A DNA stretch of 45,275 bases from the NCBI GenBank assembly GCA_013329215.1, contig DUKS01000029.1, positions 426-45,700 on the forward strand, given 5' to 3'. The translations under genes were made by a program, and so were the position numbers. Positions 13,582 to 44,159 of the stretch are shown in pieces (the first letter of the stretch is position 1; each line of letters opens with the position of its first letter). The notes under the pieces are model-generated. The model was not told the DNA's origin. It ran no database searches and was given only the letters and a program-made list of their open reading frames with translations. The DNA comes from Nanobdellota archaeon (GTDB lineage Archaea > Nanobdellota > Nanobdellia > SCGC-AAA011-G17 > GW2011-AR17).

Positions 13582-14946
13582 ATGCCAAATGCTTATTCCA
13601 TGGCAATACAAGAAAATAGCAGGGAAACAGGAAAGCGCAAAACACTGCAGGAAAGGATAGCTGAGCTTGAATTCCAGCCTGAAGTATATATCTATCCAAC
13701 GCCAAGGGTTTACAAGCCTCTTGATTTTCAATTGAACGCGGCTGATTTTGGCAATGAGCTGAATATTTATGTTCACATACCCTTCTGCAGGCAGATATGC
13801 TCTTTCTGCGGATACCTAAAAATTGCTGGCAGCGACGAAAATCTCAAAGCAGATTACGTTAATGCTGTGATTAAAGAGATTAACATGTACAGCCGGATTT
13901 TAAAAGGCAAAACAATAAAAACACTGCATTTTGGCGGAGGTACGCCTTCTTTGCTTTCAGTATCGCAGCTGGCAAGGCTTATTGATGCTTTAGTTGAAGC
14001 CAACCCAAGAATATTGGAAACATGCGAGGAAGTAAGCATAGAGGCTACGCCTGAATCTGTTGAGCAGGGCAAATTTGAAAATTATAAAGAACTTGGAATA
14101 AACAGGGTTAGCATTGGAGTCCAGACATTAAACAATGCAGAGATTGCTTTATCCCGCAGGCATAATCTGGCTGATTTTTCAATAAGGGCAATAGAAACTC
14201 TCAGAAAAGCAGGCATTCCAAACATAGTAGCTGATTTAATGATTGGAATTGAACACCAGACGCCGGAAAGTTTTGAAGCTTCTGCAAGGGGCTTAATACA
14301 GCTTATGCCGGAAACAGTAGAATTATATGCTTTGGGGCTGATGCCTCAGACAGCTTTGGGAAAACAGCATCATAATTTAATGGGAAACAAAGAAATATAT
14401 CTCTGTTATGATATTGGCAGAATACTATTCTTGGAGGCAGGCTATAAGCAGGATTGCCACAACAGGTATGCAATTCCCAATCGTGGAAGCTTTCTTCAGG
14501 AAGATTATGTGTTTCACGGCATGAGCCTGATTGGGTTTGGCGCAGGCGCAAGAAGCTATGCAGGGAATATGCATTACAGGAATGCTTACAATTCAACCAG
14601 CCCTAAGACGGCAGTTGCGGAATATATGCAAATGATAAATGGCGGGGGATTATCTGTTGAAAGCGGCATTTATTTAAGCGATGATGAAAAAATGCGCCAG
14701 TATGCAATCGGCCATATTGAAGCGCTTGATAAAAAAGAGTTTGAACAGCGCTTTGGGCTTAGTTTTGGTAATGCCTTCCCTGATTTGCACAGTAATTTGT
14801 TAAGGCTGGGGCTGGCGGCTGAAGACAAAGAAAGGCTTGTGCTTACAACAAAAGGTCTGAATTTCCGGGATCTTATCTGCACAGAGCTGTTTTCAAAAGA
14901 TGTGACAGCAGCGGAGGGGACTTATCGCCCAAGGCGCAATGGATAA
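13582..14946 (+). CDS. HemN-like radical SAM protein
   Basis: 'YVHIPFCRQICSFCGYLK' (CxxxCxxC), 'LHFGGGTPSLLS', 'SIGVQTLNNAEI'. Confidence 0.88.
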   Translation: MPNAYSMAIQENSRETGKRKTLQERIAELEFQPEVYIYPTPRVYKPLDFQLNAADFGNELNIYVHIPFCRQICSFCGYLKIAGSDENLKADYVNAVIKEINMYSRILKGKTIKTLHFGGGTPSLLSVSQLARLIDALVEANPRILETCEEVSIEATPESVEQGKFENYKELGINRVSIGVQTLNNAEIALSRRHNLADFSIRAIETLRKAGIPNIVADLMIGIEHQTPESFEASARGLIQLMPETVELYALGLMPQTALGKQHHNLMGNKEIYLCYDIGRILFLEAGYKQDCHNRYAIPNRGSFLQEDYVFHGMSLIGFGAGARSYAGNMHYRNAYNSTSPKTAVAEYMQMINGGGLSVESGIYLSDDEKMRQYAIGHIEALDKKEFEQRFGLSFGNAFPDLHSNLLRLGLAAEDKERLVLTTKGLNFRDLICTELFSKDVTAAEGTYRPRRNG

Positions 14947-17127: not shown

Positions 17128-17277
17128 CTATCTTTTCTCTATCGTGTTAATAAATCCTGTTGCAATCAGCAGGACTGCGAATATGAAAAGTAAAAGCGGA
17201 ATCCTGCTGTATGCGTATGCCAAAGCGCCGAAGATTGCGCTTATGATCCCTGTCAGTTTAATGTTTTCCCAAGGCAT
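17128..17277 (-). CDS. Small membrane protein (49 aa)
   Basis: Manual translation MPWENIKLTGIISAIFGALAYAYSRIPLLLFIFAVLLIATGFINTIEKR; two TM segments; starts 2 nt after methyltransferase stop. Confidence 0.65.
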   Translation of the reverse strand: MPWENIKLTGIISAIFGALAYAYSRIPLLLFIFAVLLIATGFINTIEKR

Positions 17278-17279
17278 GC

Positions 17280-17975
17280 CTATTGCCTCCTACAGATGAT
17301 ATAGACTGTTGTTTTATCTTTTATTGTCCTAATGCAATCAAACCCAGTATTCTTAAGCACTTCTTTTATTGCATTTAGAGGGAATATCCGCATTTCGTGC
17401 CAGTCTGATTCTTCAATCTTGCTTCTTGTATTAAGAAAGGTAAAGTGGTTTGTCAGCTTTGGGAATTGTATAAACGTGCTTTGTATTAGCTTATCCTTTT
17501 TGCTTAGGTCCCACAGAAATGTTGAATCTTTTGCCTTTCTCAGCAGGTTTGGGCTTATCACTTGAATGATAAGAACGCCGCCAGGATTAAGACAGCCATG
17601 GCAGGCATTGAATGTTGATTTAAGTTCTTCTCCGTTTCTATTGTACATAATTGTATTATAAAGGCAGATTACCGCATCAACCTTCGTTCTTAACGAGAAT
17701 CTGCGCATATCCATCTTTAAGCATTCAGCCCCTGTCTTTTTTTTGGCGATCGCGAGCATTTCCTTGCTTAAGTCGCTGCAGAGAACCTTGAATCCAAGCT
17801 TGATTAGCTCTGCAGCGTGCGCTCCTGTGCCGCATCCAAGGTCAAGTACTCTATTGCCGTTTGCATTATCTTGTATTATTTTTCCGATAAGCTTTGCTTC
17901 GTCAATGTAATGCTTGCCTGCTGATTGGGCCATTCTGTCATAAAACTGTGCTTTAGTGGTGTAGAGCTTCATCAT
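17280..17975 (-). CDS. Class I SAM-dependent methyltransferase
   Basis: 'VLDLGCGTGAHAAELIKLGFKVLCSDLSKEMLAIAKKK'; ATGA overlap with radical SAM stop. Confidence 0.9.
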   Translation of the reverse strand: MMKLYTTKAQFYDRMAQSAGKHYIDEAKLIGKIIQDNANGNRVLDLGCGTGAHAAELIKLGFKVLCSDLSKEMLAIAKKKTGAECLKMDMRRFSLRTKVDAVICLYNTIMYNRNGEELKSTFNACHGCLNPGGVLIIQVISPNLLRKAKDSTFLWDLSKKDKLIQSTFIQFPKLTNHFTFLNTRSKIEESDWHEMRIFPLNAIKEVLKNTGFDCIRTIKDKTTVYIICRRQ

Positions 17976-18910
17976 TTCATGAGCCTCGCAAACTCATATA
18001 CAGAGTAAGGGTCTGTTCCGTACTGCCATTTCCTTAACGGGCATCCAAATTCAGAAGAGTTCTGCTCTTTGATTAAACCAAACAATCTTCCCGGAGAATG
18101 AAACATGGCTCTGTCATAGCGCGATGCCCCATCAGTTTCCTTAAGGCCCAGCCCGCTCATAAACACGCAGGGAATGACATAATCCTCCTTTGTTATTGTA
18201 GCCATCCTTCTCCCTGCGCTGCATCCGGATTTTGGAACCCCTGTTTCGATATACTCCTCTATGGAAAAGTCGGGCAGTGTTATGCTCAGGTTTTCGGCTT
18301 TCTTTTTTCTATGCATCTCCAGAAAAAGCCTGAAATAATCCTTCGGGGCTGGCATTATGCTGTTCTCTTTGACATTCCCTAATTCCTGGGCAAGGCTGAA
18401 ATTTACTCTAAGCCCGAAATGCGAGCAATAACCGATTACATCCATGACATTTTCAATATTATATTTGTTTATTGTCATTTTCATCAGGGGAGTGATACCG
18501 GCTGAGCCAAGATTTTTTACAGCGCATTCCAGCTTGCCAAAAGCGCCGCGCCCCCTTATGCTGTCATGATAACCTTCCATGCCATCAATGCTTATCTGCA
18601 CTGTTGAGGGCCCCGCGTCTGCCAGAAGCTCGGCACGCCTTTTGTCTATTAGTGTGCCGTTTGTCAGGAGGGCAACATCTATTCCATAATCCCTTGCGTG
18701 CTTTATCATGCCATAAACCTGGGGGTTAAGCAAGGGCTCCCCGCCTGTAAGCAGCAGCGTTTCAATGCCATTTTCATAAAATTCATCTATCCTGCTTAGG
18801 GCTTCTTCCCTGCTGATTTGGCTGTATTCCGAAGGCCCGCCCAAGTGGCAGTGCTTGCAGGACTGGTTGCAAGCCCCTGTAATTTCCCAATACAATGTGT
18901 CTATAGCCAT
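17972..18910 (-). CDS. Radical SAM protein with shortened SPASM/twitch-like C-terminus
   Basis: 'CNQSCKHCHLGG', 'LLTGGEPLLNP', 'QISIDGMEGYHDSIRG', C-terminal Cys (GCSAGRR...YVIPC...FGCPL). Confidence 0.9.
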   Translation of the reverse strand: MAIDTLYWEITGACNQSCKHCHLGGPSEYSQISREEALSRIDEFYENGIETLLLTGGEPLLNPQVYGMIKHARDYGIDVALLTNGTLIDKRRAELLADAGPSTVQISIDGMEGYHDSIRGRGAFGKLECAVKNLGSAGITPLMKMTINKYNIENVMDVIGYCSHFGLRVNFSLAQELGNVKENSIMPAPKDYFRLFLEMHRKKKAENLSITLPDFSIEEYIETGVPKSGCSAGRRMATITKEDYVIPCVFMSGLGLKETDGASRYDRAMFHSPGRLFGLIKEQNSSEFGCPLRKWQYGTDPYSVYEFARLMK

Positions 18911-18922
18911 TTTAGTCGTGCA

Positions 18923-19126
18923 TCAGGCAGGTATTGCGGCGCATTCCACATTTTTGGGCTTAATGTAAGCTTTGCAGTCTTCCATTACTCCCATGTATAT
19001 GCAGGGGATAGCTGCGCATTCCCGGTTTGTTGGCTCGTATTCCCAAACTTTAGCGGTTTGTACCGCAGGCTTGTTTTGTTTCGCTCTCTTCAGCTCGTCT
19101 CTTATTGTGTCTGCCAGTGTATTCAT
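18923..19126 (-). CDS. Candidate RiPP precursor peptide (67 aa) with duplicated ECAAIP motif
   Basis: MNTLADTIRDELKRAKQNKPAVQTAKVWEYEPTNRECAAIPCIYMGVMEDCKAYIKPKNVECAAIPA; SD GGAGGAGA, 12 nt before radical SAM start. Confidence 0.7.
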   Translation of the reverse strand: MNTLADTIRDELKRAKQNKPAVQTAKVWEYEPTNRECAAIPCIYMGVMEDCKAYIKPKNVECAAIPA

Positions 19127-19186
19127 TTTTTTGTCTCCTCCGCAAATCCTGCTGGATTTTTGGAATAATGTATCCTTTCCGTGGGC

Positions 19187-19194
19187 TTATATAA
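19187..19194 (-). promoter_or_regulatory. TATA box for 19126 operon
   Basis: TTATATAA about 60 nt upstream of ATG 19126, SD at 19134-19141. Confidence 0.55.
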
Positions 19195-19210
19195 GGCTAA
19201 TCCATAGAGA

Positions 19211-19291: not shown

Positions 19292-20206
19292 ATGAAGCGC
19301 AATGTAATGCTCATGGGTGGCAAGACTTATGTTATTTCCCTTCCCGCCCCCTGGATAAAGAAGCACGGCATAAAGAAAGGCGAAGAGCTGGACGTGCAGG
19401 AAGAGGGCGGTCGTGTTGTGATAGAGAGTGGGAAAGGTGCGAAAATGCCTCGTCAGAGAAGAATAGATGTTTCTAATTTGCCGCCGCTTGTATATAGAAC
19501 AATGATAAGAGTATATGAGGAAGGATTTGATGAAATAGAGATAAAGTTTGATGATCCTGTGTCTATAAGCAAGCTTGAATCTGTATCTGATGCTCTTATA
19601 GGGCTTGAAATTGTAAAACAAGAACGGAATTCATGGATACTAAAAGTGATATCTGAAACCTCAAAAGAGGATTTTGAAAGTGTATTTAGGCGGTTATTCT
19701 ATCTCATCGAGGCTTTAGGTGATGAAACGCTTGATGCAGCCAAAAATGGAAATAAGACTGCCTTGCAGAAGTTGCTTGGCAAAGAGCACAATATTAACAA
19801 GTTTGCTTATTATGCATTAAGGCTTTTAAACAAATATGGCTATAAGGAAGGTTATAGAACACAAATGTTTTATTATATTCTCGAGCAATTGGAACGGATT
19901 GGTGATGTATATATAGAGCTGATAAATCTGCTTTTGAAATCAGACCTTAGACTAAAAAAAGAAATTGTTGATTTAGTGGGGAAGATAGTGGCTTTATTCC
20001 AAAAATGCCATATTGCTACATTTGAGCTTACAAAAGGGCATGCTGTGGACTGTTCTCTGCTGCATGAGACTATAAAAAAGAGGATTAATGATTCCTTGGA
20101 CACAAAGTCTGCCGAAGAGGTGAGAATATTACTTTGCTTAAGGGAGTTACGCTATGAGATTATAAGTATATTAGGGGCGCAATTAGCCCATATCAAGGAT
20201 ATGTAA
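19292..20206 (+). CDS. AbrB-PhoU domain regulator
   Basis: N-terminal 'GGKTYVISLPAPWIKKHGIKKGEELDVQEEGGRVVI' and PhoU-like helical C-terminus. Confidence 0.85.
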   Translation: MKRNVMLMGGKTYVISLPAPWIKKHGIKKGEELDVQEEGGRVVIESGKGAKMPRQRRIDVSNLPPLVYRTMIRVYEEGFDEIEIKFDDPVSISKLESVSDALIGLEIVKQERNSWILKVISETSKEDFESVFRRLFYLIEALGDETLDAAKNGNKTALQKLLGKEHNINKFAYYALRLLNKYGYKEGYRTQMFYYILEQLERIGDVYIELINLLLKSDLRLKKEIVDLVGKIVALFQKCHIATFELTKGHAVDCSLLHETIKKRINDSLDTKSAEEVRILLCLRELRYEIISILGAQLAHIKDM

Positions 20207-22297
20207 TAACTGTTTTGCCTTCCTAATATACCTGTCTCTTGCTTTTGGGCTGTAATAGCTTCGTTTTGGATTGTTGCATTTTTTGGCAAACAGCAAATTG
20301 ACGTAAATAGCTTCTTTCATGTATTGCTGCAGGGGATTATAATGGAATTCATTTCCCTCCGCTTCAGATTGGATTATGAAATAATCAATAAGCTCTTTTT
20401 TTGTGGAAATATCCAATTCCAATTCCTCTTGTTCAAGTAGGCTTACCAAGTCAAAGAAAGGGCTGGCGTAGCTTGCAGAAACCGGGTCTATTATAACCAC
20501 CCCGCTTTCCCCGGTATCTAAAACATTGCCTGTATGCGTATCACAATGGCAAAGTGTACGCCTTGTTTTGTCCAGCTCCCCTGCGATTTGTATCACCCGT
20601 TGCTTTCTCTTTTCATCCAGTTTAATTCTTGGCAATATCTTAACGCGCATTATGCCTGTATAATCATAATCTTCAAGACCTAAGCCATATTTACTATGCA
20701 TTTTCTTATCTCTCTTGCCTGTTGAATTAAAGGAGATAATTGCATCTATCACTTGCATAAGCTTTTTCTTTTTGAAATCTTTAAGCTGCTTCGGGGTGGG
20801 GGATTCTGCATCGCCAGTTTCTCCTGCATAAACTCTTGCCATATCCTCAAGTGAGCATGCCCTAAACTCTTGCTCCCGCTTGCCATTCCTGAAATTGTGT
20901 GCGAGTGTAGCGATAACATAAGCATCCCCCGCTTCAGTTACATGCACCCTTCCCTTGGGGAATGCCAACCCTTTGCAATTATCCCTGAGAAACTTAAGCA
21001 TTGCCACATGTTTTTGGGCAGCTTCTTCTGAAGGCTCTTTCTTGATTATAACATCACCATCTGTCAAAACTGCGGGATAGTTCGGATGTACTCCTGTTAG
21101 CTCAAAGCTTCCGATTTCTGCTTTTTTAACCAGTATTCTGTCAAATGCTTCCCTTGCTTTTGCCGCAATCTCCCTGTCTTCAGAGTCGTTGCTATTTTCA
21201 AGAATGAAGAGGCTGTAATAACATTTCATATTTAACGGGTCTAAAGCAATTTCTTCAAATATCATAGTGAGTTCATGGTCTCTGTCAAACCCTTCGGCCG
21301 AGTCATTCTGGGCATAACAGTGGCAAAAATCTAATACTCGATTAGATATGCGCCTTCTTACTGCAACCGACTCGGCAAACGCTTTTTTTTCTGGGGTGGC
21401 ATAATCCCGCCTGTAATCTCCATCAAATGGCGAAGGAGCAGGTATACATTCAAAATTGTTTCTTCTTTTTGTTGAAAACCTGAAAGTGGCATACGCGGGG
21501 CTCCGATGCCTAAATGGGATATATTCTGAATACTCGATTCCATCAGGGTTATTCCTGCTTTTCATTAGTTCTAAAGCGGATAGGGTTGCTTTACTGCTAT
21601 TGCCTAAATCTCTTAAACAGAGATGAAGGGTTGCAAGAGACATATTTGCTGTAAATAAAACATGCTCTGCTTCTGAAATATCCCATTTGTCGGGGTTATT
21701 TTCCTTGCACCACTCAATAAACTCTTGTGCTTCAGTTTTTAATAGTTCATAGAAGGTGATTGCATTGCCGAAGACGCCAAAACTATCTTCTTTAGGATAT
21801 TTTTGGAACAATATTATATCTGCTATACTTTCATAAGCATCCATGAGAAAAATCCTTCTTATTCTTTCATTAATTGCATCTGTTTCTCTCTTTTCAAAAC
21901 AGTTTGAAGCTAGTCCAAAATATGCCCTTAAGGCATATAGATCTTTTCTTTCGGATATATCCGTCTGGTACTCTGGAGAACCAATAAATATCTGCGCCCT
22001 AAGCTTATCACGCGTTGCATCTTTAAACATAGAGAGCGCATTTTTAATCCTTTCAGATAACCCATCTTCGCGTCCTGTAATCCGAATATGCGGATTTTTA
22101 AAAAATTCATCTGATTCTAATTCTCTTATCTCTTTTTGCATCCTGCCTTTATGGGCACGATATGCTTCTAGAACCGGGTTTGTTTTGGGGTGCTGCAAAG
22201 CACCAACAGTTATGGGAGATTCTCTATCTGTTGAGGTTGCCAATTGAACTGCGAATAAATTTTCTATTCCTTTTTTAAGTATGTCATCGATTCCCAT
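20183..22297 (-). CDS. Large protein with C-terminal APH-like phosphotransferase domain
   Basis: 'TLCHCDTHTGNVLDTGESGVVIIDPVSASYASPFFDLVSLLE' catalytic/DFG-like motifs; ~400 aa helical N-terminal region. Confidence 0.8.
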   Translation of the reverse strand: MGIDDILKKGIENLFAVQLATSTDRESPITVGALQHPKTNPVLEAYRAHKGRMQKEIRELESDEFFKNPHIRITGREDGLSERIKNALSMFKDATRDKLRAQIFIGSPEYQTDISERKDLYALRAYFGLASNCFEKRETDAINERIRRIFLMDAYESIADIILFQKYPKEDSFGVFGNAITFYELLKTEAQEFIEWCKENNPDKWDISEAEHVLFTANMSLATLHLCLRDLGNSSKATLSALELMKSRNNPDGIEYSEYIPFRHRSPAYATFRFSTKRRNNFECIPAPSPFDGDYRRDYATPEKKAFAESVAVRRRISNRVLDFCHCYAQNDSAEGFDRDHELTMIFEEIALDPLNMKCYYSLFILENSNDSEDREIAAKAREAFDRILVKKAEIGSFELTGVHPNYPAVLTDGDVIIKKEPSEEAAQKHVAMLKFLRDNCKGLAFPKGRVHVTEAGDAYVIATLAHNFRNGKREQEFRACSLEDMARVYAGETGDAESPTPKQLKDFKKKKLMQVIDAIISFNSTGKRDKKMHSKYGLGLEDYDYTGIMRVKILPRIKLDEKRKQRVIQIAGELDKTRRTLCHCDTHTGNVLDTGESGVVIIDPVSASYASPFFDLVSLLEQEELELDISTKKELIDYFIIQSEAEGNEFHYNPLQQYMKEAIYVNLLFAKKCNNPKRSYYSPKARDRYIRKAKQLLHILDMG

Positions 22298-22599: not shown

Positions 22600-23424
22600 A
22601 TGGCAGACGAAAAAAAGAAAGATGATAAAAAGGCGAAGGACCAGCCTAAGCCGAAAGCACCGGAACAGCCTAAGGTTGCTGACAAAAAGGCAGTTCTTGA
22701 AAAGGCAGGAGACGCTATAAACGCGTTTGATGCTTCAAGGGAAACTCTTGAAACAAAGCTTAGGGGCAAAGTTCCTGAGCTGCTTGACAAAGAGATAGGC
22801 AATGTAGTGCAGACACGTACGAAATTCGTTAAAGCTTTCCAGAGGGGGTTAACACAATACCTTCATGGCGTTACGGATGAATTAGGTGTTGTAACCGCGC
22901 CCCATGCTGAGTTTGGAGAGGGATTGAGAGCCGCTGCATATAAGGCATTCGGCACAGCTTTGGGCATTAAGAATGATGACATAAAAGCGCTTGGCGTCAC
23001 TGCAAAAATAGGAGAAAAACAGCCTGCCTCTGCAATGGCATACAGGCTTCTGTTCCAAACAATGACTGGCGTTGACATGGAAGATTTGGTCGAAGGATAC
23101 CAAGATGAAGAACAGATTTTGGATGATGCAGTGCAGCAGGACGTGATGAAACCTCTTGTTGAAGCATCAACGAAATACCTCTTGAGGGATAGCGCAGACA
23201 AGATGGTGGCTGCAAACAAGAGCAATGACAAGTTGACTGCTGACATAACAGCGCTGTGCAATATTGCAGGCATGAAGGTAAATCCGAAAGACATGCTGAC
23301 TCCTAACCAGAGGGGCCAAATGTACGCGCAAGCCTTAGCACAGGTCATGAGCCAGTACGGTCATGAGTACCTGCCGGTTTACGGCAAGGCAGGCAAGAAA
23401 AGCGAAGCTAAGCCGAAGGCTTAA
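22600..23424 (+). CDS. Hypothetical protein with Lys-rich termini
   Basis: 274 aa, SD 'gggagggggt', upstream TATA 'ctttatatagggg'. Confidence 0.75.
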   Translation: MADEKKKDDKKAKDQPKPKAPEQPKVADKKAVLEKAGDAINAFDASRETLETKLRGKVPELLDKEIGNVVQTRTKFVKAFQRGLTQYLHGVTDELGVVTAPHAEFGEGLRAAAYKAFGTALGIKNDDIKALGVTAKIGEKQPASAMAYRLLFQTMTGVDMEDLVEGYQDEEQILDDAVQQDVMKPLVEASTKYLLRDSADKMVAANKSNDKLTADITALCNIAGMKVNPKDMLTPNQRGQMYAQALAQVMSQYGHEYLPVYGKAGKKSEAKPKA

Positions 23425-36665: not shown

Positions 36666-39278
36666 ATGCGTAAACTATTACTGTTCGCATTTGCCGCATT
36701 GCTCGTTTTCGCTTTGCCTGCATCTGCAACGGTTCTGGAAACAAGCCTTGCTGTGCGTGACAAGCTTCCTGCAGAGACGCTTGCTGACATTCCGGGCTTT
36801 ATTTCAAGGATGGAAACTGTCGGCTCAAAGGTTTCTGTTGATCCTGTTAATGGGTATTACACTGCCTATAATGAGGATGACTTAAAGGCAATATTTGGGG
36901 ATGATGCTGTTTTAGTGCCCTCTCCGCCCGGGCTTCTGACCATAACCTACAAAAGAGGCGGGACTTACAAATTTTGGGGCATGCTTCACGGGCTTGTTGT
37001 TGCTGATTCCGCAAGAAAAGTGATTACAGTCACAAAAGGCGGGTTTATTTCAAGCGAGGATCTGAATGTGAATATTGCAGGAGATGAAATCCGGATAGAT
37101 GCGGATAATCCTGCAAGCGTTTTGTTTAAAATACCAAGCAAGGGCATATATTCACAGAACAATTATTTCATGGGCTGCTTGTTGAAACAAGAAGCAACGG
37201 AAGAAGGGTGCATGGCATGGCTTTGCGAGCAGGAGCCCTATTTTAGGGAATGCGCACAGGAAAACCCCCTCTTTGAGCCCATAGAAGGATGTGACGCTAA
37301 TCAAATGCAAAGGTACAGGAATTATCTTCAGAATGAAATTGACTGCAGGACTAGCGCTCTTGTCAAACCGCAGGAGGCGTATGCCAATCTCACAGGCCAC
37401 GGGTTCTTGTCTGAAAATGCATTTATTGCGGACTACAAAACAAAGGAACCGGAATCTTTCCTGTCCAAGGCAATGGAAGCAGATGCTAATTTTGCCTTTG
37501 TATCTGACCTGTACAATGTTAATATGAAAAGAAGCAGGAGACTCGGCTTTACAGCATCCGCTCCCACAGGCGGAAGCATAGATTCTAAAGGCATTAAATC
37601 CGATGAGCTGTTTAAGTATTCTGTTGGGGAGCATGGAGAGAAGGCTATTTCCGGGGACCGGCTTGCAGTATATCGGCCGAGAGGTATAATACTAAAAGCA
37701 GAAGACATTGAAAATACCCCACACTTTGATCCTATCGTAAGGATTTTTGAAGGCAGCATAAACGATGAGCAGGCATTTGAAATAATGCAGATAAAAATAG
37801 GGGCTGTTTTTTTTACCCCTTCGAGCACCGGACTTTACACGCAATGTACGGAAAACAAGCCGCCTTACGAAGGCATTTCCTGTTTCTTGAGCGAAGAAAG
37901 CGGCTTGAATTACAAATTGAAAATAAACAAGCCTGCGGCACATGAACAGCCTATTATGGAGATAAACACGGATGCCATTAGTTTTAATCCGGACAACCCT
38001 TTTGAACGCAAACAGACATATATTGAGATAGAGCCTTTTGACATAAATGATGATTTGAGCATAGTCAGGCTTGTAAACAATGCGGATGCTGAAATAGTAT
38101 TCACAGGCAAGGATATAAGAATACCGCCTGTTGGCAATGACTGGGCAGAATTAGGCGTAAGCTTTAAGGCAAGCATTTATCCGTTAAGCCTCCCTCCGCA
38201 GTGCGACCCGGGGATTTTCATCGGGGAAGAATGTGCTATACCAAAGCCGGTAGAGGTGTATGACACAATAGAATGCAAGCTGCCTGAAAGAAAATGCTAT
38301 TTAAATGGTGTGGAAGTGACGGGATTTATTGGCGGAAGCGTGCAAAGGACTAAATTTTGCCATGAGGATTCAGACTGCTATAACAACCAGAAATGCATAG
38401 AAGGAATGTGTGTGATGAAGGCAACGTGCAGTGCATTAAGCTTAAGCAGCGCGGATTCTGGGTTCCCAGCTATAACAACAGGCCCCAATAAGGCAGACGT
38501 GCTGTTCGCCTGCGATGGCTATCCTTCTGAAAGCGCTTGTATAGACGATGTAAAGAAGGCTATAGACAAGGACAGCAGATACAATGGAATATTTTCTGTG
38601 GAGCCGTTCAAGAGCAATTTACAAAGATTTACATTTCATACTGCGGCAGGGAGCGCTGCTCCTTCTTCTCGAAACTGGATGCGCGATTTTAGTGTCAGCC
38701 GCAGCCTTTCAGACCCTTCCTATGGCTTGACTTACACCATAAGATATTCTAATTCTTTTGTAAAACAATGCCCTGATTCAGATTATACCATAGTTTTATC
38801 CAAAAAAGAATTCCGCTCATTTAGTGAAATTGAACATTTTTTATCAACAAGTTTACGGAACGTAATCTTCGGTACATTAGGCGCAGGGGTTTACATGAGC
38901 TCTGCAGATGATAATAACTTCCCTCAGACTGCGTTGCATGAGTTCGGGCACCTATTTGGAGGCTTGCAGGACGAGTATTATGAGCCCGTCGCAGGAGCGT
39001 CAGGAGGTATAGGCAACCCAAACTGCATTTCAAAAGAGGAAATACTATTGCATTGGTCCCTTTGGCCTGATGTTCTCGCAGATGCGTTGCAGGGGAAATG
39101 GAAAGGCTGCGGGGGGCCTTGTGAATCTTCAAAATGCGCAAGCCTGCTTAGGCCTTCTGAAAATTCTGTTATGAATAATGAATATACCTGGCTGGAAAAT
39201 CGCAATGAGCCCGGATGGAAAGCATTCAACGAGCCGAGCGAGGCACAGATTATAGAGAAGCTGAATGAGTATTCGTGA
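36666..39278 (+). CDS. Large secreted protein with HExxH metallopeptidase (M64-like) domain
   Basis: Signal peptide; 'ALHEFGHLFGGLQDEYYEP'; Cys-rich 'CHEDSDCYNNQKCIEGMCV'. Confidence 0.8.
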   Translation: MRKLLLFAFAALLVFALPASATVLETSLAVRDKLPAETLADIPGFISRMETVGSKVSVDPVNGYYTAYNEDDLKAIFGDDAVLVPSPPGLLTITYKRGGTYKFWGMLHGLVVADSARKVITVTKGGFISSEDLNVNIAGDEIRIDADNPASVLFKIPSKGIYSQNNYFMGCLLKQEATEEGCMAWLCEQEPYFRECAQENPLFEPIEGCDANQMQRYRNYLQNEIDCRTSALVKPQEAYANLTGHGFLSENAFIADYKTKEPESFLSKAMEADANFAFVSDLYNVNMKRSRRLGFTASAPTGGSIDSKGIKSDELFKYSVGEHGEKAISGDRLAVYRPRGIILKAEDIENTPHFDPIVRIFEGSINDEQAFEIMQIKIGAVFFTPSSTGLYTQCTENKPPYEGISCFLSEESGLNYKLKINKPAAHEQPIMEINTDAISFNPDNPFERKQTYIEIEPFDINDDLSIVRLVNNADAEIVFTGKDIRIPPVGNDWAELGVSFKASIYPLSLPPQCDPGIFIGEECAIPKPVEVYDTIECKLPERKCYLNGVEVTGFIGGSVQRTKFCHEDSDCYNNQKCIEGMCVMKATCSALSLSSADSGFPAITTGPNKADVLFACDGYPSESACIDDVKKAIDKDSRYNGIFSVEPFKSNLQRFTFHTAAGSAAPSSRNWMRDFSVSRSLSDPSYGLTYTIRYSNSFVKQCPDSDYTIVLSKKEFRSFSEIEHFLSTSLRNVIFGTLGAGVYMSSADDNNFPQTALHEFGHLFGGLQDEYYEPVAGASGGIGNPNCISKEEILLHWSLWPDVLADALQGKWKGCGGPCESSKCASLLRPSENSVMNNEYTWLENRNEPGWKAFNEPSEAQIIEKLNEYS

Positions 39279-42950: not shown

Positions 42951-44159
42951 CTATGCTGCCTTTGCAGTTATCTTGAGCTTGCCCTTGAAGATGCCTGCTT
43001 TTTTCTTTGGGGAAAATGCCCGCACCTTTATTTCTTTTCTCTCGCCGGGCTCAATTGCGATATTTGCGTCTTTCAGCGCAATCCATTCACCGTTAAAAGC
43101 TTCTATAAGGATATTGCTTTTATCACTCGCGGAAAAGCTTACTTTTACCATGTCAATGCCTGTGTTCCTTACATACAGCACGGACTCTTTGCTTTCCCCG
43201 GGGTTCAGCCTGCCAAAGCTTATGCTCTTTGTTTCAAGAACCGTTGCAATCCTGCTTACATACTCTATTTGCCTTGATTCTGTCGTGTTTGTTATTGAAT
43301 CAAACGCGGTTATTGTAAGGTTGTATGCCTTTCTTTCATCAGAAGGGGAAAACGCAAATCTGCCTGCAAACAAAACAGTTTCATTGCTTGCGTTTGCCCT
43401 GTTCATCATGATTTCCCTCCCGCCTATAAAGGCAGTAATGTTTGCAATGTCTTCAATGCCGTTTTCATCGCTGACAAGCGCTTCGATCCGCACTGTCTTG
43501 TTCCCCGCTATTACCTGTATGCCGTCTGCATCCATTTCGTCAGGCGTTATGTTTATGCTGGCGATTCTTGGCACCAGGTTCAGGGTCTCAAGCTCAAACT
43601 CAGCCTCATCTTTTTCCAAAGCAGTTTCAAACGCCCCTCCCCCCGGCGTTCCACCTTCTGCACTTTCTTCCCATCCCATTTCGCTTGTTCTTTCAAGGCT
43701 TTTGCCGTTGCCGTTGGCGCCGATTGAAGATGCATAGGAGAAAACATCGCTTTCATTCCCGTTTGTCAAATTCACAGTGCCTGCGCTGTTTGCCAATGAG
43801 ATTGAAACCTGCATTGCACTGAACCCGTCTGCCTCATCCCACACCCAGTCATTGTTTCCCCAGTATTTCTCAAACGAATCAGTGTCTGTGTCAGTTCCGT
43901 CTGTGAGCTCTTTTGCAATCACGAGATACTGCATTGGCCCCAGCGTGCCTTCCAGCTGCTTGTTGTTGGCAAGCCATTGGCTTAAGTCAATTGCTTCTTC
44001 TCCATGGTTGTAAACCTCAATCCATTCGCAGTCAGTGTCATCGCACTGGCTCGGGTTGTACATCACTTCAGTCAGGATTAGCCCGGCTGATGCAATCCTG
44101 CATGACGCGACCAATAACGATGCTGCCAGCATAAGCAGCCACGCCTTTTTGTGTCTCAT
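42951..44159 (-). CDS. Secreted lamin-tail-domain protein
   Basis: Signal peptide; 'LILTEVMYNPSQCDDTDCEWIEVYNHGEEAIDLSQW'; C-terminal beta-sandwich. Confidence 0.82.
   Translation of the reverse strand: MRHKKAWLLMLAASLLVASCRIASAGLILTEVMYNPSQCDDTDCEWIEVYNHGEEAIDLSQWLANNKQLEGTLGPMQYLVIAKELTDGTDTDTDSFEKYWGNNDWVWDEADGFSAMQVSISLANSAGTVNLTNGNESDVFSYASSIGANGNGKSLERTSEMGWEESAEGGTPGGGAFETALEKDEAEFELETLNLVPRIASINITPDEMDADGIQVIAGNKTVRIEALVSDENGIEDIANITAFIGGREIMMNRANASNETVLFAGRFAFSPSDERKAYNLTITAFDSITNTTESRQIEYVSRIATVLETKSISFGRLNPGESKESVLYVRNTGIDMVKVSFSASDKSNILIEAFNGEWIALKDANIAIEPGERKEIKVRAFSPKKKAGIFKGKLKITAKAA

Follow-up and report, generated by a model that had tools for sequence, protein, structure and literature searches.

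A conserved four-gene operon, probably of the RiPP type, pairing a short cysteine-containing peptide with a twitch-type radical SAM protein in a Nanobdellota archaeon

Four consecutive minus-strand genes of a Nanobdellota archaeon form a conserved unit in which a short, cysteine-containing peptide under purifying selection precedes a twitch-type radical SAM (rSAM) protein. Together they probably constitute a RiPP-type biosynthetic operon, as had been proposed in a sequence-only reading of this DNA; the proposal is supported by the conservation of the peptide gene and by the nearest solved relative of the rSAM protein, the RiPP maturase SkfB. The stretch analysed, referred to as the window, comprises 45,275 nucleotides of contig DUKS01000029.1, from a genome assembly of 1.4 Mb. 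The whole set spans positions 17128–19126 and, with its upstream elements, comprises:

19186..19194, minus strand: TATA-box-like TTATATAAG, in a stretch identical in two species
19136..19141, minus strand: ribosome-binding-site-like GGAGGA ahead of the peptide ATG (GGAGG also precedes the G003 homologue)
18923..19126, minus strand: candidate precursor peptide gene, 67 aa (ORF list, homologue)
17972..18910, minus strand: radical SAM gene, 312 aa (Pfam PF04055, E 9.8e-25)
17280..17975, minus strand: class I SAM-dependent methyltransferase gene, 231 aa (Pfam PF13649, E 1.9e-17)
17128..17277, minus strand: gene of a 49-aa hydrophobic protein (39% identical homologue; no family above cut-off)

The peptide and rSAM genes are separated by 12 nt, the rSAM and methyltransferase genes overlap by ATGA, and a gap of 2 nt precedes the gene of the 49-aa protein; these ORFs and spacings agree to the base with the tight coupling first described. 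GGAGGA sits 9 nt ahead of the peptide ATG. The upstream stretch TATGGATTAGCCTTATATA, which includes the TATA-like box, is identical between the window and a second species, and the box itself is probably the archaeal promoter of the operon. No dedicated transporter or protease gene is present in the operon. Its upstream neighbour, transcribed divergently, encodes a protein with an AbrB/MazE-type N-terminus and weak similarity to PhoU (Pfam), and its downstream neighbour, in convergent orientation, is TruD (Pfam).

The PhoU-like gene (plus strand) belongs to a convergent pair at 19292–22297, together with a minus-strand gene for a 704-aa protein possessing a C-terminal APH-type kinase fold. In the window as in the second species (G003), the two genes overlap at their 3' ends over about 24 nt, and the pair is kept in three genomes of the genus, whether the operon is present or not. 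It is followed at 22600–23424 by the gene of a 274-aa protein with a charged, Lys/Pro-rich N-terminus and no Pfam match, a counterpart of which also follows the kinase gene in G003 (L011:6308-7093).

Convincing matches to the peptide (E 1.5e-26) and to the rSAM protein (E 6.2e-170) were obtained in one other genome among the 99 relatives searched, that of G003, a member of the same genus in which the two homologues are adjacent. The contig concerned (JAHJRD010000087.1, labelled Nanoarchaeota) carries all four genes with order and tight spacing kept, as are the neighbours on the peptide side. Identities between the two species are 64% for the peptide, 79% for the rSAM protein, 52% for the methyltransferase and 39% for the membrane protein. 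The sequence-only reading had tied its proposal to the conservation of the gene order and of the peptide next to rSAM homologues, and it survives this comparison on both counts. Values of dN/dS could be estimated for three of the four operon genes. That of the peptide was 0.28, third codon positions accounting for 28 of its 55 differences, and, since dS is 0.88 as against a dN of 0.25, the peptide is a translated and selected gene. The rSAM pair gave 0.12 (dN 0.12, dS 1.06) and the methyltransferase pair also 0.12, with dS near saturation. A short, conserved and real gene is therefore located beside that of the rSAM protein.

Residues 1–27 of the peptide are charged and amphipathic, with a net charge of +3 in both species, which bears out the charged leader initially suggested, and are 63% identical. 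They are followed by a conserved block of 85% identity at residues 28–47 (WEYEPTNRECAAIPCIYMGV; WxYEPTNRECAAIPCxYxGV) and by a variable tail with a second motif (YIKPKNVECAAIPA) at the C-terminus. In this tail the motif CAA[I/L]P is repeated, as YEPTNRECAAIP and YIKPKNVECAAIP in the window and as KKNACAALP in G003; in 20,000 shuffled versions of the peptide, an exact six-residue repeat like its internal ECAAIP turned up once. Each peptide contains four cysteines, three of which are aligned (Cys37, Cys42 and Cys62). The peptide matched no Pfam or NCBIfam family and no solved protein, so that the earlier supposition of a new precursor family holds against these two libraries. Precursors of ranthipeptides (PapB type) are expected to contain CX3D/E repeats; these are absent here, CAA[I/L]P being found instead. 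A reading of CAAI as the CaaX box of a prenylated protein was rejected since the motif has an internal position and the genes scanned showed no prenyltransferase.

Conservation is higher in the putative core block than in the leader, the reverse of the pattern in many RiPP antimicrobials. This could reflect a structural or cofactor role, or the block could be the recognition site. Because the presumed core is so unusually conserved relative to the leader, two further explanations stay alive, both of which overlap in part with the RiPP reading in that they too make the peptide the substrate of the rSAM enzyme. According to the first, which we consider unlikely, the peptide would be a small structural or metal-binding protein, modified by the rSAM enzyme and the methyltransferase for stability and staying in the cell or membrane rather than being released, with the cross-linked gamma subunit of quinohemoprotein amine dehydrogenase as the model. 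The highly conserved cysteine block, the purifying selection and the co-transcribed membrane protein agree with such a role, but the operon contains no larger partner enzyme and the peptide resembles no family or solved protein. According to the second, the peptide would be converted to a small redox or catalytic cofactor, as for PQQ or mycofactocin, the block WxYEPTNRECAAIPCxYxGV becoming the cofactor and the peptide not being secreted. No part of the peptide is better conserved than this block, and the weak matches to the rSAM protein include the mycofactocin and PQQ rSAM maturases. The mycofactocin and PqqE models nevertheless score far below their cut-offs, no matching dehydrogenase, peptidase or PqqD/MftB-like gene lies nearby, no PqqD was found in the genome, and the CAA[I/L]P motif occurs twice, all of which make a cofactor improbable.

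The rSAM protein possesses the cluster motif CxxxCxxC (C14/C18/C21) and, in a twitch-like C-terminal domain, C230, C248 and C290, all three of which are retained in three genomes; the motif and the extra C-terminal cysteines pointed out at first inspection are both present. The resemblance to SPASM/twitch maturases that had been drawn from them is real but reduced, there being three cysteines only and no Pfam SPASM match; Pfam recognized the radical SAM core and, within it, a partial 4Fe-4S single-cluster match. The spacing C230-x17-C248 agrees with the common CxAG...I...PC hairpin. C290 (GCPLR) aligns with the cysteine of the GGCPLR that ends a complete SPASM domain at locus L024, and the cysteines preceding GGCPLR in that domain are missing from the window protein. 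Judged from these alignments, the C-terminus represents a SPASM domain in reduced form, in which no more than three protein cysteines are available to one putative auxiliary cluster. The protein accordingly combines CxxxCxxC with an auxiliary-cluster domain, albeit one of three auxiliary cysteines only.

The protein starts at the radical SAM core with no N-terminal extension and therefore has no fused RRE, and a PqqD-type RRE domain was not found anywhere in the genome. RRE leader-binding domains are common in rSAM RiPP operons, though not universal. We counted the lack of a fused RRE or a genomic PqqD against the RiPP reading, as we did the number of complete operons, only two, and the absence from them of a protease or dedicated transporter gene.

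In a profile search of solved structures the best match was SkfB with 84.9 bits, the next scoring 53.6 bits, and C230 and C248 fell within the aligned hairpin region. SkfB also topped the fold search, for which the structure model, made from two sequences, is of low confidence (mean pLDDT 48; about 25–35 in the C-terminal third) and says nothing on the twitch domain; for this reason the twitch fold rests on sequence. Viral rSAM relatives mostly matched the N-terminal core and were too distant to deepen the alignment. With NCBIfam the best scores were to AhbD, NirJ1 and NirJ, mostly limited to the core and reaching at most about a fifth of the cut-offs (for AhbD/NirJ, 102.1 vs 500 and 95.1 vs 515). 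The SkfB model (TIGR04403) gave 75.8 bits against a cut-off of 300 and the PapB model (NF047865) 66.2 against 340. Since no NCBIfam match comes anywhere near its cut-off, the protein lies outside the characterised non-RiPP families, and the objection to a RiPP operon that the sequence-only reading had foreseen from that side does not arise.

Three other identities were rejected. An identity with the AhbD/NirJ heme enzymes, whose models gave the top NCBIfam scores through the radical SAM core, fails on scores far below the curated cut-offs; the C-terminus is mostly unmatched and no heme-pathway gene adjoins. A tungsten-cofactor role was rejected on cut-offs, and so was viperin (pVip), for which only residues 6–161 match; its C-terminal cysteines set the window protein apart from viperin.

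A second radical SAM protein in the window (13582–14946) has a HemN-type C-terminal domain and is unrelated to the operon. What appears to be a tandem fusion of two radical SAM units, 845 aa long, is encoded elsewhere, at L025:792-3329 (G243:C6); a third such gene follows from 3326 on, with a 4-nt overlap.

The cassette is rare and patchy among the sampled relatives, being present in 2 of the 103 genomes of the order. In a third genome of the genus, G001, the operon is absent and the gene upstream of the PhoU-like/kinase pair is a different one, so that the cassette was gained or lost as a unit. Across the 378 genomes of the class, the peptide profile detected only the two known copies, and the rSAM profile these two, a truncated copy in G347 and weakly matching, unrelated SPASM-type proteins. 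No third intact operon was found in the 378 class or 377 phylum genomes, and a profile of the rSAM C-terminal domain added nothing in the 377 phylum genomes, 100 relatives of G347 or the 103 genomes of the order. Two short rSAM motifs, which would miss relatives like that of G347, recovered only the same-genus copy genome-wide across GTDB species, so that more distant homologues may exist beyond the phylum, and no close relative was found in the viral contigs and plasmids searched.

G347 belongs to another family of the same class. At L022:5400-6388 (G347:C66) only ~100 C-terminal residues of the rSAM protein are encoded, and the methyltransferase gene comes next, which suggests that the pairing of these two extends beyond the genus. 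The rSAM remnant abuts an unrelated minus-strand frame, resembling a fragment of an Lrp/AsnC-type protein, at a junction that is either a real rearrangement or an assembly artefact. No peptide is present at this locus, and it is on exactly that side that the rSAM gene is cut off.

The G347 locus, with its rSAM remnant and methyltransferase and no peptide, also agrees with a small-molecule pathway (heme-like, nucleotide/viperin-like or lipid) in which the rSAM protein and the methyltransferase would act together and the peptide be unrelated or accessory, as do the AhbD/NirJ-type scores and the matches of viperin models to the core. We give this explanation little probability: the matches are mostly confined to residues 5–168 and far below cut-offs (102 vs 500), the C-terminal cysteines set the protein apart from viperin, and the peptide gene is the first of the operon and conserved with it, the G347 copy being truncated exactly on the peptide side. 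That the operon is a decaying or horizontally passed remnant without current function in this lineage is very improbable, for in spite of its patchy occurrence (2/103) and the truncated G347 copy its four genes are intact, dN/dS is low for the peptide, rSAM and methyltransferase genes (0.28, 0.12 and 0.12), and the upstream TATA-like box is conserved.

The methyltransferase has an ordinary class I fold and is a distant relative of the daptide RiPP methyltransferase (NF041820), from which it differs in scoring below the cut-off (58.6 bits vs 175). Its distant relatives also include glycine/sarcosine methyltransferases, which score similarly, as do other N-methyltransferase families, and sugar N,N-dimethyltransferases; N-methylation is a guess. 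The 49-aa protein contains one strong and one weaker membrane segment and matches no Pfam or NCBIfam family above cut-off. Its earlier description as a two-TM protein is plausible, although of the two hydrophobic segments the second alone is strong in both species.

In the RiPP-type operon favoured here, the peptide is with good probability the substrate of the rSAM enzyme, to which it would be guided by its charged N-terminal helix (1–27). The enzyme would make a radical-based change in the WxYEPTNRECAAIPC block and perhaps also in the second occurrence of CAA[I/L]P. The likeliest such change would link one of Cys37, Cys42 and Cys62 to a carbon close by, in the backbone or a side chain, possibly as a Cys thioether, although a cysteine-dependent cross-link is put forward tentatively. 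The three-Cys auxiliary site would leave an iron site open for a cysteine of the substrate, as reported for CteB. The methyltransferase, which may well act on the same peptide, would then methylate its N-terminal amine or a side chain, and the 49-aa membrane protein would aid export, anchoring or self-protection.

The Skf system of Bacillus subtilis (SkfA and SkfB, the latter being the radical SAM/twitch sactisynthase, or sactipeptide maturase, of the sporulation killing factor system) likewise places a short cysteine-containing precursor beside an rSAM/twitch enzyme. In contrast to it, the window rSAM protein has no N-terminal RRE, an SkfA-like peptide is absent, a methyltransferase and a small membrane protein are added, and the host is an archaeon. 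In CteB the open Aux I site is ligated by a cysteine of the substrate, and SkfB shows three visible ligands (PMC6231123). From these two cases we infer, by analogy, that a cysteine of the peptide may ligate the auxiliary cluster of the window enzyme, as for CteB and CteA (PMC6231123); CteB differs in possessing an RRE and a complete SPASM domain that holds two auxiliary clusters; in the window protein only three auxiliary cysteines are left. The three-Cys site thus poses the question of whether an open cluster site binds a substrate cysteine.

RiPP clusters, rSAM-modified ones included, have been predicted across Asgard, TACK and DPANN archaea, with very few characterised archaeal products, so that an rSAM RiPP operon is of a kind already known (PMC12144867). 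The predicted ranthipeptide and sactipeptide clusters share with the window an rSAM-modified RiPP-type organisation in an archaeon (PMC12144867) and differ from it in that the window precursor belongs to no Pfam or NCBIfam family and its SPASM domain is reduced. Three things appear to be new in the libraries searched: the family of the precursor, the RRE-free enzyme with its reduced SPASM domain, and the combination of the four genes. Since the precursor is absent from the curated libraries searched and no RRE is detectable, mining by known precursor families or by RREs would miss this operon.

DPANN archaea, whose genomes are tiny, presumably rely on other cells; we know of no characterised product of this kind from them. 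That a peptide-modifying operon is intact here and under purifying selection suggests that such archaea produce modified peptides as well, whether for interaction, for competition or as a special cofactor. The most far-reaching version, a new class of DPANN RiPP in which an RRE-free half-SPASM enzyme with a three-Cys cluster would bind the cysteine of the repeated CAA[I/L]P motif at its open iron site and install a cross-link without precedent before methylation, the product being a membrane-associated peptide that an episymbiotic archaeon directs at its host or at competitors, is rather unlikely as a whole.

Two further proteins of the window are probably located outside the cell. The 870-aa product at 36666–39278 has a weak IgA peptidase M64 match (E 3e-5, just below cut-off) and is probably, from that match, a large secreted or surface peptidase. 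The 402-aa protein at 42951–44159, probably extracellular, combines a lamin-tail domain with an ASH/Cep192-like Ig domain at its C-terminus.
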